From: Bacteroidales bacterium
GTDB taxonomy: Bacteria; Bacteroidota; Bacteroidia; Bacteroidales; Marinilabiliaceae
Direction of reading: 5' to 3'
Assembly (NCBI GenBank): GCA_024401355.1
Contig: JAKSLF010000001.1
Location: 62,001 to 126,000 of the forward strand
DNA: 64,000 bases
Shown: positions 19,259-42,286 of the stretch, one piece after another
How positions within the stretch are numbered: position 1 is the stretch's first letter
Layout of the letters: each line of letters begins with the position of its first letter
Translations under genes and position numbers: made by a program
Notes under the pieces: model-generated
What the model was told of the DNA's origin: nothing
The model's database searches: none
The model's input: the letters and a program-made list of their open reading frames with translations, nothing else

Positions 19259-20788
19259 ATGATTGAAATACTCGACACAACTCTTCGCGACGGTGAACAA
19301 ACAGCCGGTGTCTCGTTCAATACCAACGAGAAACTGACTATCGCGAAGCTGTTGCTTGATGATATAAATGTCGACCGCATCGAGGTCGCTTCAGCTCGCG
19401 TCTCTAGTGGCGAACTCGAGGCTTTTGGCACCATCTGTCAATGGGCTCAGCAAAACGGACACCTCGGACGCGTCGAGGCTCTCGGTTTTGTCGACAATGG
19501 AGTCTCTATCGACTGGATCGCCAACGCCGGCGGTAAGGTCATGAACCTACTCACTAAAGGTTCACTCCGACATGTCACTATGCAGCTCAAGAAGACTCCT
19601 GAAGAGCACCTCGCCGACATCAAGGCCAATATCGAAATGGCTGCTAAACGCGGCCTCGAGGTCAACCTCTATCTCGAGGATTGGTCCAACGGCATGATCC
19701 ACTCTCCCGAGTATGTAAAGTATATGCTCGACCATCTTCAGCATCTGCCTATCCGCCGTTTCATGCTGCCCGACACTCTCGGCATCCTCTGTCCCGACCA
19801 GACTCTGCAGTTCTGCCAGCAGATGGTAAAGATGTACCCGGCTCTCCAGTTCGATTTCCACGCTCACAACGACTACGATATGGCTGTTGCCAATGTCTAC
19901 TCGGCTCTCAAGGCCGGCATCACTGGCATACATACTACTGTCAACGGTCTCGGTGAACGCGCCGGCAACGCTCCTCTCGCTAGCGTCATCGGCATACTCA
20001 ACGACCATCTCGGCGAAGAAAATAGTCTCGACGAACATCGACTGACTTACATCTGCCGAATGGTCGAGACACTTAGCGGCATCCGCATCCCAGACAATAA
20101 GCCTATTGTCGGCGACTCCGTCTTTACACAATGCTCTGGCGTTCACGCCGATGGTGATAATAAGGACAACCTCTATGTCAACAAGCTCCTCCCCGAGCGT
20201 TTCGGACGTGTCCGTAAATACGCTCTCGGCAAGACTTCTGGCAAGGCCAATATCAATAAGAATCTCGAGGAACTCGGCATTCACCTCAGCCCCGAACAGA
20301 TCAAGCTCGTCACTAAGCGCATCATCGAACTCGGCGACAAGAAGGAGAATGTCACTACCGAAGACCTCCCTTTCATCATCTCCGATGTCCTCCGTGGTGG
20401 TAATAATGCTGGTAGCACTACTACCGACAATATACATATAGTCAACTATTCTCTCAACCTTACTCGCGGACTCAAGCCTGTCGCTACTGTCCGCATCTCT
20501 ATCCATGGTAAGGAATATGAGCAGACTTCTGCCGGCGACGGACAGTACGACGCTTTCATGAAGGCACTCTGGAAGATCTACGAGAAGCTTGGCAAGAACC
20601 ATCCGCTCCTCGTCGACTATAAGGTCTCTATCCCTCCTGGAGGCAAGACCGACGCTCTCGTCGAAACTGTCATCTCATGGAATAATAACGGACAGGAAAT
20701 CCGCACACGCGGACTCGATGCCGACCAGACTGAAGCCGCTATCAAGGCTACTGTCAAGATGCTCAATATTGTCGAACAGCGCTCATAA
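19259..20788 (+). CDS. cimA: (R)-citramalate synthase, Leptospira type
   Basis: A 509-residue DRE-TIM metallolyase that resembles Leptospira citramalate synthase more than LeuA. It has [17 protein letters not shown], then RIEVASARVSSGELEAF, KVMNLLTKGSLRH and YLEDWSNG; the C-terminal regulatory domain has GDGQYDAFMKAL and IPPGGKTDALVET. From memory these segments match the Leptospira enzyme closely, while the leuA in this window has the LeuA forms ([14 protein letters not shown]). The enzyme joins acetyl-CoA and pyruvate; with LeuCD and LeuB it gives 2-oxobutyrate for isoleucine without threonine. Similar genes in Bacteroides are often labelled as a second 2-isopropylmalate synthase. rdgB follows after 20 bases. 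Confidence 0.85.
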   Translation: MIEILDTTLRDGEQTAGVSFNTNEKLTIAKLLLDDINVDRIEVASARVSSGELEAFGTICQWAQQNGHLGRVEALGFVDNGVSIDWIANAGGKVMNLLTKGSLRHVTMQLKKTPEEHLADIKANIEMAAKRGLEVNLYLEDWSNGMIHSPEYVKYMLDHLQHLPIRRFMLPDTLGILCPDQTLQFCQQMVKMYPALQFDFHAHNDYDMAVANVYSALKAGITGIHTTVNGLGERAGNAPLASVIGILNDHLGEENSLDEHRLTYICRMVETLSGIRIPDNKPIVGDSVFTQCSGVHADGDNKDNLYVNKLLPERFGRVRKYALGKTSGKANINKNLEELGIHLSPEQIKLVTKRIIELGDKKENVTTEDLPFIISDVLRGGNNAGSTTTDNIHIVNYSLNLTRGLKPVATVRISIHGKEYEQTSAGDGQYDAFMKALWKIYEKLGKNHPLLVDYKVSIPPGGKTDALVETVISWNNNGQEIRTRGLDADQTEAAIKATVKMLNIVEQRS

Positions 20789-37603: not shown

Positions 37604-38344
37604 ATGAACGTAAAGAATCTTATTTTGTCAGTAGCCCTCTCAGCAGGACTCGTGTTCACTGGTTGCTCTAGCATGAGCACAACAGCAAAGTCTACAACTA
37701 AGGGTGCTGCTATCGGTGCTGGCGCTGGTGCTGTAGTAGGTGCAGGTACTGGTCTCGCAGTTGCTGCTATCGGTGGTAAGAACAAGAAGAAGGCAGTTAT
37801 CATTGGTGCTGCTGCTGGTACTGCTGTAGGTGCAACTGCAGGTGCAATCATCGGTAACAAGATCGGTAAGAAGAAGCAGGCTCTCGAAGAGGCAGCTGCA
37901 AATGCTGCATTTGAGGAGACAGAAGACGTAAACGGCAACAAGGCTCTTCAGGTTACTTTCTCTGAGGGTGCTCTTCAGTTCGCTACAGGTAAGGCTGCTC
38001 TCGGTGCAAAGGCTAAGACTGAGCTCGCTGATTTCGCTAAGAGCCTCGTAGCTGGTGAAGCTTCAGGTGAGATTTACAACGTACAGGTTATCGGTTACAC
38101 TGATAACACAGGTAGCGAAGCAGCTAACCAGAAGGTTTCTGACGCTCGTGCTAAGTCTGTAGCTGACGTTCTCACTGCTAACGGCGTTTCTAATGCTCAT
38201 ATCGCTAACGGTGGTCTTCCACTTCAGAACTATGTAGCTGACAACGCAACTGCTGAAGGTCGTGCTAAGAACCGTCGTGTAGAGGTTTACATCACTGCTT
38301 CACAGGAGATGATTGACGCTGCTAACAACGGCACATTGAAGTAA
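37604..38344 (+). CDS. OmpA-family lipoprotein with glycine-zipper segment
   Basis: 246 residues. A lipoprotein signal ends in LVFTG-C21, so it is lipid-anchored. Residues about 35-90 are a glycine-zipper stretch (GAAIGAGAGAVVGAGTGLAV ... GAIIGNKIG), expected to sit in or on the membrane. Residues 130-240 are an OmpA-like peptidoglycan-binding domain (VIGYTDNTGSEAANQKVSDA ... AEGRAKNRRVEVYI). This layout is typical of YiaD-like proteins that tie the outer membrane to peptidoglycan. It is monocistronic, with a good terminator. Codons are Gly/Ala rich and biased, which suggests high expression. Confidence 0.92.
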   Translation: MNVKNLILSVALSAGLVFTGCSSMSTTAKSTTKGAAIGAGAGAVVGAGTGLAVAAIGGKNKKKAVIIGAAAGTAVGATAGAIIGNKIGKKKQALEEAAANAAFEETEDVNGNKALQVTFSEGALQFATGKAALGAKAKTELADFAKSLVAGEASGEIYNVQVIGYTDNTGSEAANQKVSDARAKSVADVLTANGVSNAHIANGGLPLQNYVADNATAEGRAKNRRVEVYITASQEMIDAANNGTLK

Positions 38345-38365: not shown

Positions 38366-38397
38366 GGCTCATCCCCGAATAGGGGATGGGCTTTTTT
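38366..38397 (+). terminator. Terminator after the OmpA-like gene
   Basis: Stem GCTCATCCCC/GGGGATGGGC (one G-U pair), loop GAATA, then six T. Confidence 0.9.
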
Positions 38398-38430
38398 ATG
38401 TTGGGTGGCACTCACTTTTTACGCCTTTGT

Positions 38431-38462
38431 TTTGTATTTGTGAAAAAGGTTGATTAATTTTG
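38431..38462 (+). promoter_or_regulatory. Promoter of the leu leader and leuA-leuCD operon
   Basis: TTTG (38431-38434), 20-base spacer, TAATTTTG (38455-38462). Transcription would start near 38468, about 15 bases before the leader ORF and 175 bases before leuA. Confidence 0.78.
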
Positions 38463-38482
38463 CGGGTGTAAAATAAATTGAA

Positions 38483-38548
38483 ATGATAAAGTCGCTCAAC
38501 ATACTAGCTCTGGGCCTATTGGGTGGTCTTCTATTGGTTAAGCCATAG
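38483..38548 (+). CDS. leuL: Candidate leucine-rich leader peptide of the leu operon
   Basis: A 21-codon ORF (ATG 38483, TAG 38546) between the operon promoter and a terminator-like hairpin. Eight of 21 residues are leucine, all between residues 5 and 18, including LL and LLL runs; codons are mixed (CTC, CTA, CTG, CTT, TTG). Position, Leu content, promoter in front and attenuator behind are what a leucine-sensing transcription-attenuation leader looks like in enterobacteria. It could instead be chance: the peptide is also hydrophobic, like a signal peptide fragment. No database check was possible. Confidence 0.6.
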   Translation: MIKSLNILALGLLGGLLLVKP

Positions 38549-38586
38549 GAGTGAGATGCGGTGTGTTATGAATGACAAAACAATAC

Positions 38587-38625
38587 AAGGCCCTTCCCAC
38601 TCTCTGAGGTGAGAAAGGCCTTTTT
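38587..38625 (+). terminator. Attenuator-like hairpin 20 bases before leuA
   Basis: Outer stem AAGGCC/GGCCTT, inner pairs TTC/GAA and CAC/GTG across mismatches, loop near TCTCTGA, then five T. It lies between the leader ORF and the leuA ATG, so it must be read through for expression. The leader ORF contains GGGCCT (38512-38517), complementary to AGGCCC (38588-38593) of the hairpin's 5' arm, a possible competing pairing. Confidence 0.75.
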
Positions 38626-38644
38626 AATTATATATAAGCAAAAC

Positions 38645-40144
38645 ATGGATAATAGAGTCTACATTTTCGACACGACACTGCGTGATGGTGAGCAGGTGCC
38701 AGGATGCCAGCTCAACACTGTTGAGAAGATTCAAGTCGCTAAGCAGCTTGAGGCATTGGGCGTTGACGTGATTGAAGCAGGTTTCCCTGTGTCAAGTCCT
38801 GGTGACTTCAATTCAGTAGTTGAAATTTCTAAGGCCGTTACGTGGCCAACTATATGTGCACTAACACGTGCCGTTGAAAAGGATATTGATGCTGCTGCCG
38901 AGGCTCTAAAGTTCGCTAAGCATAAGCGTATTCATACTGGTATCGGTACTTCCGATTCTCACATCAAATATAAGTTCAATTCAACACGTGAAGAGATTAT
39001 CGAACGTGCTGTGAAGGCTGTTAAGTACGCTCGTCGCTACGTTGATGATGTCGAGTTCTATTGTGAAGATGCCGGACGTACCGACAATGATTACCTCGCA
39101 CGTGTTGTTGAGGCTGTTATCAAGGCTGGCGCTACTGTCGTTAATATCCCTGATACCAACGGCTATTGTCTCCCTGCCGATTTCGGTGCTAAGATCAAGT
39201 ATCTTTTCGACCATGTCGATGGCATCGACAATGCTATTATCTCTACTCACTGCCACAACGACCTCGGTATGGCAACTGCCAATACTATGGCTGGTGTGCT
39301 CAATGGTGCTCGACAGATTGAGGTTACTATCAATGGTATCGGTGAACGTGCCGGCAACACTTCTCTCGAAGAGTGTGCCATGATCATGAAGTGTCACCAC
39401 GACCTCGGACTTGTTACCAATATCAATACTCAGAAGATCTATCCAACAAGCCGCATGGTCTCAAGCCTCATGAACATGCCTGTTCAGCCAAACAAGGCTA
39501 TCGTTGGACGTAACGCTTTCGCTCATTCATCTGGCATCCACCAGGATGGTGTGCTCAAGAATAAGTCGACATACGAAATCATGGATCCACACGATGTGGG
39601 TATCGACGATAACTCTATCGTACTTACTGCTCGTTCAGGCCGTGCTGCTCTTAAGCATCGTCTCGCAGTTCTTGGTGTTAACCTCGAAGGCGAACGTCTT
39701 GACAAGACTTACGAGAAGTTCCTCGAACTCGCTGATAAGAAGAAGGAAATCAACGACGACGACCTCCTCATCCTCGGTGGTGTCGATATAAAGGAAAATC
39801 ATCACCTCAAACTCGACTTCCTCCAGGTTACAAGTGGTGTGGGTGTTCGTCCTGTTGCTTCGGTTGGCGTCGATATCGCTGGTGAGAAGTTCGAGGCTGC
39901 TGCTACAGGTAATGGTCCTGTCGATGCATCAATCAATGCTCTCAAGCAGATCATCAAGCGTCACATGACTATCAAGGAGTTTACCATCCAGAGCATCAAC
40001 AAGGGATCTGACGATACATGTAAGGTTCACATGCAGGTTGAGCACGAAGGTCGCATCTACTACGGCTTCAGTGCTAATACCGACATCGTCAGCGCTTCTG
40101 TCGAGGCATATATCGACTGTATCAATAAGTTCGTACGTAAATAA
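38645..40144 (+). CDS. leuA: 2-isopropylmalate synthase
   Basis: The ATG at 38645 gives [20 protein letters not shown], the usual LeuA opening; an in-frame ATG at 38609 would lie inside the attenuator and is rejected. About 499 residues. It condenses acetyl-CoA with 2-oxoisovalerate, the first leucine-specific step. It has [14 protein letters not shown], the HCHNDLGMA metal-binding HxH region, NGIGERAGN and the C-terminal leucine-feedback domain (about 390-499). It is clearly different from cimA at 19.3 kb. The fused leuCD gene follows after 18 bases. Confidence 0.95.
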
Positions 40145-40162: not shown

Positions 40163-42286
40163 ATGAATACTTTATTTGATAAGATCTGGGATGCACATGT
40201 AGTGCAGAAGGTCGAGGACGGACCTACCCAGCTTTACATCGATCGTCTCTATGCTCATGAGGTTACTTCACCTCAGGCTTTTGACACTTTGCGCGACAAG
40301 GGCATCAAGGCTTTCCGCCCTGACCATGTTGTTGCTATGCCAGACCATAATACACCTTCTGATCAGCAGAAGAACATTAGCGATCCAATAGGCTGCAAGC
40401 AGGTTGATACTCTTTCATCAAACTGCGCCGAGTTCGGCATCAAGCACTTTGCAATGGGTACTAAGGACAATGGTATTATCCATGTTGTTGGTCCTGAGAA
40501 GGCTCTCTCTTTGCCTGGCATGACTATCGTTTGTGGCGACTCACATACTTCAACTCACGGTGCTGTAGGTGCAATCGCTATGGGTATCGGTACTTCTGAG
40601 GTTGCTCAGGTTCTCGCTTCACAGTGTATTCTCCAGAGCAAGCCAAAGACAATGCGTATCAATATCGAAGGTCAGCTTCAGCCTGGCGTTACTGCCAAGG
40701 ATGTAGCTCTCTATATCATGGCTCAGGTTACTACTTCAGGTGCTACTGGCTATGCTGTTGAATATGCTGGTTCTGCAATCCGCAATATGAGCATGGAAGG
40801 TCGTCTGACTCTCTCTAACCTCTCTATCGAGATGGGTTCACGTGCAGGTCTTATTGCTCCTGACGAGACTACTTTCGCTTACCTCAAGGATCGTGAGTAT
40901 GCTCCTAAGGGTGCTGAGTGGGATGCTGCTGTTGCTAAGTGGCGTCAGCTCAAGAGCGATGACAATGCAGTATTCGACAAGGAACTTACTTTCAAGGCTG
41001 AGGATATCAAGCCTCGTATCACATACGGTACAAACCCAGGTGCAGGTATTGCAATTGATGAGTGCATTCCTACAACCGACGGCATGAGCGAAAGCGAAAA
41101 GGCTCAGTTCATCAGCCAGCTCGACTATATGCAGTTCAAGCCAGGCCAGAAGCTCGAGGGTACTCCAGTTGATTATGTATTCCTTGGCGCATGTACTAAC
41201 GGTCGTATCGAAGACTTCCGTGCATTCGCTTCTGTAGTTAAGGGTAAGAAGAAGGCGGCTAATGTTGTTGCATGGCTCGTTCCTGGTTCATGGCTCGTTC
41301 GTCAGCAGATCATTGAAGAGGGTATCGACAAGATTCTTGAGGAGTCTGGCTTCGAACTTCGTCTTCCTTCATGCTCATCATGCTTGGCTATGAACCCAGA
41401 TAAGGTGCCAGCAGGCAAGCTCTCAATCTCTACTTCAAACCGTAACTTCGTTGGTCGTCAGGGACCAGGTGCACGTACTATCTTGGCTTCTCCACTTACA
41501 GTAGCAGCCAGCGCCATCACAGGTAAGGTGACAGACCCACGTACACTTGAGATTTCAGCTATTGCTGCTCCTGAGGTTACAAAGGTTGTAGCTGCTCAGC
41601 CACAGGATTGCCCTAACTGCGCATTCGGTGCAACAAAGAGTGCACAGGCTGCCGACGGTGCTAAGTCTGTTCATAAGGCATTCAACGTTGTTAAGTCAAC
41701 ATGCTTGCCTATCAACATCGATAACAACAACACAGATAATATCATTCCAGCTCGCTACCTTGCGTTCACAACTCGTGATCCTAAGTTCTATGGCGATGCC
41801 TTCATGCACGATATCCGCTTCGATGCCAACAACAAGCCAGTTGCCGATTTCGTAATGAACGTAGCTCCATTCAACGAGACACCATCAGAGGGCAAGCGCG
41901 AGATCATCATCGGTGGCAAGAACTGGGGTTCTGGTTCGAGCCGTGAACATGCAGCATGGGCTATTGCAGGTTATGGCATTCGCGTCGTAATCAGCTCTTC
42001 ATTCGCTGATATTCACCGCAACAACCTCCTCAACTGCTTCGTACTTCCTGTTATCGTGAGTGAGGAATTCCGTCAGGAACTTCTTGCTTCTGTCGAGAAG
42101 GATGCCAACACTATCGTTACTGTTGACGTTCCTAATCAGACTGTTACTAACGAAGCAACAGGACACTCTGAAAAGTTCGACATCAATGGCTACAAGAAGT
42201 ATTGCCTCTTGAACGGCTATGATGACATCGACTACTTGTTGTCAAAGGAGAGCGATATCGTATCGTTCGAAAAGGCAAGAAAGTAA
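40163..42286 (+). CDS. leuCD: Isopropylmalate isomerase, large and small subunits fused (LeuC-LeuD)
   Basis: One 707-residue ORF holds both subunits that are normally separate. Residues 1-455 are LeuC, with the three [4Fe-4S] cysteines in [11 protein letters not shown] and [13 protein letters not shown]. Residues about 505-700 are LeuD, with [11 protein letters not shown] and [13 protein letters not shown]. The linker (about 455-505) contains a CPNC motif. It isomerises 2- to 3-isopropylmalate, and citramalate to 3-methylmalate for the cimA route. The order LeuC then LeuD is that of the fused fungal Leu1 enzyme; I know it as unusual in bacteria. I see no stop or frame change at the junction. 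A hairpin terminator follows. Confidence 0.93.

Follow-up and report, generated by a model that had tools for sequence, protein, structure and literature searches.

Organization of the leuA upstream region

The region under study lies within a stretch of 64,000 nucleotides from a Bacteroidales genome, here called the window, and is flanked at its 5' side by a gene for an OmpA-like lipoprotein (37604-38344) and at its 3' side by leuA, the putatively controlled gene, which encodes 2-isopropylmalate synthase on the + strand (38645-40144; TIGR00973 and NF002086 matched above their cut-offs). The OmpA-like gene is followed by a terminator-like hairpin of its own (38366-38392, + strand), detected by a hairpin scan and in the sequence, which would keep the leuA transcript apart from that gene. 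Downstream of leuA, after a gap of 18 bases, a profile match identified a leuC-leuD fusion of 707 residues in one frame (40163-42286, + strand), presumably part of the same operon.

A first-pass annotation of this stretch had listed a promoter, a 21-codon ORF with eight Leu, a terminator-like hairpin with a T-run and then leuA, and had seen in them the layout of ribosome-mediated attenuation. All four features were recovered in that order, the promoter being of Bacteroidota type: a TTTG element of the -33 type (38431-38434) stands 20 bases 5' of a -7-type element, TAATTTTG (38455-38462), both on the + strand, fitting the Bacteroides promoter consensus, TTTG-N19-21-TAnnTTTG. An RNA start near 38468 would be expected. 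Among 60 leaders with enough 5' sequence (L025 had 33 bases only), TAnnTTTG was present 8-55 bases 5' of the leader ATG in 56, versus 4.9% in shuffled sequences; a simple sigma-70 promoter scan was uninformative for this phylum.

At 19262-20629 the window contains another LeuA-like gene, a distant one with 29% identity. A TAnnTTTG element was identified by eye beside it, and no complete ATG ORF of 10-45 codons was found in the 400 bases around its start.

The leader ORF

The ORF for the putative leader peptide MIKSLNILALGLLGGLLLVKP runs from ATG to TAG at 38483-38548 (+ strand); eight of its 21 codons are for Leu, starting at 38495, 38504, 38510, 38516, 38519, 38528, 38531 and 38534, and similar peptides were found at three same-genus leuA loci. 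A short ORF rich in codons for the product of the pathway is thereby located 3' of the promoter. CTA makes up 3 of the 8 Leu codons, versus 4.1% in nine nearby genes (P ~0.003). When the 300-base upstream region was shuffled, an ATG ORF of 12-40 codons in which Leu occurs eight times or more and makes up at least 35% of the residues appeared in 6 of 3000 shuffles. However, the window contains 466 short ATG ORFs, and among those with at least six Leu three exceed the leader ORF in Leu fraction; the leader ORF alone is therefore moderate evidence, and its place and conservation decide. Three ORFs of the window also passed a scan that required of a short ORF either a residue run or a high density of I/L/V, together with a T-run hairpin within 100 bases, the hairpin of the leuA leader being the strongest of them (-15.5 versus -11.1 and -11.3 kcal/mol).

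RNA elements and predicted folds

Four segments can be assigned on the + strand. Region 1 comprises the control codons CTT CTA TTG (38528-38538) and pairs with 38542-38551, region 2 (GGAGUGAGA, 38548-38556) begins with the final base of the leader stop and is common to helices 1:2 and 2:3, and region 3 (38587-38603) comprises the 5' arm of the terminator together with the start of its loop, of which 38595-38603 pairs with region 2. The terminator hairpin, helix 3:4 (38587-38622; -15.5 kcal/mol), with its T-run at 38621-38625, places an intrinsic terminator between the leader ORF and leuA; its stem contains two C.A mismatches on the + strand, and a simple scanner reports the hairpin on the - strand only. 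The 2:3 helix carries one A.C mismatch (38554 x 38597), and the 1:2 helix does not stand out when folded (-9.4 kcal/mol, z -0.53).

The first reading of the sequence had found no second, nested antiterminator, a statement that has to be revised, as region 2 pairs with the 5' arm of the terminator and excludes the terminator. In fold predictions the nascent RNA 38549-38604, which ends before region 4, takes the antiterminator form (-12.5 kcal/mol), and RNA from 38560 onward takes the terminator form (-19.1 kcal/mol). The entire leader to 38604, or its part from 38512, is predicted to fold differently, which means that the model needs a ribosome. With all the RNA from 38512 free, the predicted fold takes instead a pairing of GGGCCT (38512-38517) with AGGCCC (38588-38593), which had been pointed out in the first-pass annotation. 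Both motifs are present; their pairing is not conserved in the same-genus leaders L005, L006 and L095, and is for that reason probably not the switch.

Leaders and covariation outside the genus

A scan with LeuA, from which the best 80 of 523 loci were kept (a choice that biases the set to near relatives), contributed to a set of 98 regions upstream of leuA or ilvD. A script accepted a region when it had a short ORF dense in I/L/V and a T-run hairpin at most 90 bases 3' of it. Accepted were 64 of the 98 regions, namely 50 of 82 leuA regions, in which the ORF is rich in Leu or Leu/Ile, and 14 of 16 ilvD regions; the comparison with relatives suggested earlier is thus borne out for the leader and the hairpin. 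No leader was accepted in 32 leuA and 2 ilvD regions, and in 15 of those 32 leuA regions the end of a protein with a SEMWxT motif, which we take to be IlvC, lies just 5' of leuA. Examples of the leaders are MKSLNLLNGLIIIRLQGAGGSDRACI from a Prevotellaceae MAG (L082), MIQNSLHILGLNISIILLAKVGGSGCCA from a Bacteroides (L019) and MEQILRNSLLNSLGIIIILLWQQDRK from Parabacteroides faecalis (L048). Two of the 64 were left out of the alignments, L035 for an implausible hairpin and L007 as distant and with an odd hairpin.

In most other Bacteroidales the end of the ORF (e.g. GGA AGT GAG AAA GGT) is complementary to the 5' arm of the terminator (CCTTTCTCACTTCC). In 54 of the 64 regions the best duplex that the end of the leader forms with region 3 was better than 95% of shuffles, and in 37 it was better than 99%; of the leuA leaders outside the genus, 41 of 44 are over the 95% line, as are 12 of the 14 ilvD leaders.

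Covariation was analyzed in alignments of these 44 leuA leaders, which come from Bacteroidales outside the genus of the window. Helix 2:3 was paired in 98.6-99.1% of cells, with 5 of 8 pairs changed on both sides; the corresponding values were 84.9% and 7 of 14 for helix 1:2, and 85.1% and 7 of 13 for helix 3:4. For each helix, none of 500 shuffles reached the observed covariation score or fraction of cells paired, and both values were lower in every slid register; as the rows are kin to each other, such shuffle counts are not probabilities. Weaker measures were less decisive: pairs changed on both sides were equalled in 29 of 500 shuffles for 1:2 and in 3 of 500 for 3:4, pair types in 335 and 96 of 500, respectively, and in 23 of 500 for 2:3 in alignment A3, and one slid register of 1:2 has 22 cells changed on both sides versus 20. 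The compensatory changes asked of relatives are therefore found in the helices of the 44 leaders. An antiterminator is present in these relatives, and in the window it is assigned by homologous position and by the fold of the nascent RNA. Likewise, region 1 overlaps the control codons and pairs with region 2 in the 44 relatives, a pairing that is weak in the genus and in the window alone; these codons read ATT ATT ATT in Prevotella and CTT CTA TTG in the window.

Moreover, a covariance model (R1) was built from the 44 outside leaders, with no sequence of the genus of the window. When 150 of 839 first-look candidates of the window's own genome were scored, the window element (38519-38625) ranked first, at E 3.7e-4, followed by the ilvD leader at E 0.003, E-values from this model being rough; the third match was the opposite strand of the window's leuA hairpin.

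Pairing and codon content inside the genus

Within the genus, leuA was found in 14 of 15 genomes (in G010 split over contig ends), the remaining one having a distant paralogue only, and ilvD in all 15. For the 2:3 duplex all four genus leuA leaders fall short of the 5% line: of 300 shuffles, 138 were as good for the window, 29 for L005, 21 for L006 and 69 for L095, and three of the four carry an A.C mismatch in this helix. Covariation of 2:3 was absent in the genus alignment A1 (cells 282 of 500 shuffles, score 422 of 500), in which L121, L123 and L127 are misregistered, and also in A4, which leaves out these three and L129 (no pair changed on both sides, 498 of 500 shuffles). In A4, four of the nine 2:3 pairs are always paired, with little or no change in sequence; at the remaining five, pairing is lost in some rows without compensation, one such loss being the A.C mismatch seen in leuA leaders; judged from the aligned sequences, 2:3 pairing within the genus is maintained by unchanged sequence. 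Helix 1:2 is weak in A4 (score 37 of 500 shuffles, cells 104 of 500). The compensatory changes expected of close relatives thus did not appear, no helix showing clear covariation inside the genus, and the pairing statistics of the window and its genus lend no support to the antiterminator; the case for the window accordingly rests on homology to covarying leaders, on the match to the model and on the codons.

In the four members of the genus in which leuA stands apart, the leuA leaders contain 7-9 Leu, 1-3 Ile and 0-1 Val, and the five ilvD leaders of the same genomes (G005 has two) contain 5-8 Val and 1-5 Leu. The eight ilvD leaders of ilv-leu operons in the genus are mixed, with 4-6 Leu, 2-4 Ile and 2-7 Val; ilvD and leuA are linked on one contig in six of these operons (in L128 via a leuA fragment) and across contigs in two (L122 and L126), where an IlvC-like end before leuA is the sole support of the link. 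The ilvD leader L118, in whose genome leuA was not found, has 4 Leu, 2 Ile and 7 Val. By their codons, then, the leaders of this genus track operon content, and genomes in which leuA and ilvD are separate and the codons of each leader suit its gene represent a natural experiment on the re-specification of a sensor.

Two further arrangements were observed in the genus. At L117 and L120 (genomes G001 and G004) ilvD lacks a leader though leuA lies behind an ilvC-like gene, an apparent loss of the attenuator. At L088-L092, which are ilv-leu operons, a strong T-run hairpin with no leader stands between the ilvC-like gene and leuA, perhaps serving as a partial terminator.

Other leaders in the genome and in the phylum

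The genome of the window has further leaders. A Val/Leu leader, MTRLFNIQVLHVVVVLLVVMP, is located 5' of ilvD (L115, C1:18598-18702), and the stretch GCCATA(A)GGAGTGAGA that it has in common with the leu leader suggests that the leader of one operon was copied to the other and its codons changed. On contig C5, a His leader (MNNLHQHHHHHTDD, L133) precedes hisG and a Trp leader (MNSNWWWWRLTSNKPE, L134) precedes trpE, with T-run hairpins of -13.8 and -18.3 kcal/mol, respectively; thrA of this genome has no evident leader.

Scanning 296 genomes of the phylum with R1 gave matches in 9 of them, at 12 places, under strict filters that make the result one of existence and not of frequency. With the genes behind the matches named by reading the downstream proteins, the matches lie before leuA (L136, L137 and the window), before ilvD (L142, L145 and L146) and, with Trp runs, before trpE-like genes (L139, L141 and L144). 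L140 and L147, on one contig of G271, are Ile leaders before a branched-chain aminotransferase-like gene; these two, MKTNSNIIIISIIIRSFE and MKTNMNIIIISIIIRSFE, are nearly identical and in tandem, each with its own T-run hairpin. Finally, L138 is a Met/Cys leader, MMQMCMMMCCCM, before a metY-like (O-acetylhomoserine sulfhydrylase-like) gene. This leader or variants of it were found in 8 of 8 homologues matched from residue 1 with at least 72% identity (L156-L162 and L163; L156 is the L138 locus, and the partial L164 and distant paralogues were left out), and in all seven loci that were checked a terminator is present and region 2 is complementary, the pairing being computed here without shuffles. 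From its sequence, the Met/Cys leader is a candidate attenuator.

These leaders could represent one Bacteroidota attenuator design whose sensor has been re-specified by codon change as operons split or fused, a reading for and against which we see the chances as even. It would comprise control codons that form region 1, a region 2 of the GUGAGA type and a region 3 of the CCUUUCUCAC type, with sensors for Leu, Val/Leu, Ile, Trp and Met/Cys (MMQMCMMMCCC, before the O-acetylhomoserine sulfhydrylase-like gene). Classical attenuation requires a ribosome close behind the RNA polymerase; the conserved elements therefore suggest such coupling in Bacteroidota, and the common design, if true, would extend close transcription-translation coupling phylum-wide.

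Proposed mechanism and alternative explanations

We consider it very probable, from the comparisons above, that the window element is a classical four-segment ribosome-mediated attenuator, with charged leucyl-tRNA as the sensed signal and leuA, probably also leuCD, under its control. Sequence comparison establishes the leader ORF and its position, the three alternative helices of the relatives and the match between codons and operon content; the start of transcription, the stalling of the ribosome, termination and the response to leucine are what we infer from them. RNA polymerase would start near 38468 and the leader ORF would be translated. When leucine is short, the ribosome would wait at the Leu-Leu-Leu codons (38528-38536) and cover region 1, so that region 2 (38548-38556) could pair with region 3 (38595-38603); with 2:3 formed the terminator would be blocked and leuA transcribed. 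When leucine is ample, the ribosome would reach the stop codon (38546-38548) and cover region 2, so that the 3:4 terminator (38587-38622) could form. If translation did not take place, 1:2 would form and the terminator would again win.

A leader acting on translation, whose hairpin hides the leuA start or from which ribosomes re-initiate, seems to us quite unlikely. Re-initiation from a leader stop near the gene has been hypothesised for several phyla including Bacteroidetes (PMC4833913), but the stop codon of the present leader lies 96 bases 5' of leuA, versus a peak at 11-14 bases for Bacteroidetes in that paper, and the hairpin closes with a T-run like an intrinsic terminator. In addition, the gap between hairpin and gene varies from 15 to 119 bases across the 44 relatives, which is too variable for masking of a start site. 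Coincidence would mean that leuA happens to follow a short ORF with many Leu codons and a common terminator for transcripts from upstream. It would agree with the presence of equally Leu-rich short ORFs in the window and with the weak pairing statistics of window and genus; we judge it very unlikely, however, given that a separate terminator-like hairpin (38366-38392) follows the upstream gene, that leader, promoter and helices are conserved with covariation outside the genus, and that the relatives' model gives the window element the top rank in its genome.

In the four genus leuA leaders the peptides resemble each other and are hydrophobic, as a functional small peptide with the hairpin as its terminator would be, yet their composition tracks operon content and in relatives the region 1 codons pair with region 2, making a function of the peptide itself highly improbable. 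A leader binding tRNA or a metabolite (T-box or riboswitch), with an incidental ORF, would show the same order of 5' element, terminator and gene, but is hardly to be expected here, where only about 120 bases separate the expected RNA start from the terminator, about half of them ORF, and where Rfam gives no family at gathering level anywhere in the window and, within 38400-38680, no hit up to E 1 either. In ten relative loci Rfam gave five weak matches, far below cut-offs, to microRNA or staphylococcal families.

Comparison with known systems

Attenuators of this kind are already known, also in the phylum, from Bacteroid-trp RNA and from clues in Flavobacterium. Cases of leu or ilv attenuation in Bacteroidota may already be predicted by Lopatovskaya et al. 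2010 (Mol Biol 44:128). Bacteroid-trp RNA (RF01692, in the list given in PMC2864571) belongs to the same phylum as the window and concerns Trp, not Leu; the window leader has no Trp. RF01692 matches a Trp-run leader, MQTLVLNNNWWWRLRKHNS, in a same-genus genome with 48.7 bits, versus a cut-off of 49, before a gene named trpE-like by reading; it has no match in the genome of the window (G000) and none above the cut-off in the 15 same-genus genomes. Besides Bacteroid-trp, the literature found for the phylum among open-licence PubMed Central papers consists of one report, on the transcriptome of Flavobacterium psychrophilum, with clues to leader peptides before amino-acid operons; its passages on these leaders mention neither a leu leader nor a structure (PMC9723704). 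In another phylum and another operon, Corynebacterium ilvBNC is a branched-chain operon reported to have an attenuator or a leader ORF that is conserved (PMC10272879, PMC11857589), and is likened to the window by that description only. The authors of PMC2965389 (2010) stated that they knew of no leader-peptide system demonstrated outside Proteobacteria and Actinobacteria, with the exception of ermC. A published leu or ilv attenuator of Bacteroidota, or its structure, was not found among open-licence PubMed Central papers, and the present comparison of structures supports attenuation of branched-chain amino-acid operons in this phylum.

The classical systems for comparison are the enterobacterial leu attenuator, leuL-leuABCD, and the ilv and trp attenuators. 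Unlike the enterobacterial leu attenuator, the window element has a Bacteroidota promoter and no Rfam match. The position of region 2 also differs: in the genus of the window it starts at or near the leader stop, whereas 43 of the 44 leaders from other Bacteroidales have its start within the ORF. The window element resembles the enterobacterial leu attenuator in its leader with a run of Leu, in the control codons within region 1, in the terminator, in the mutually exclusive helices 1:2, 2:3 and 3:4 and in having leuA downstream.
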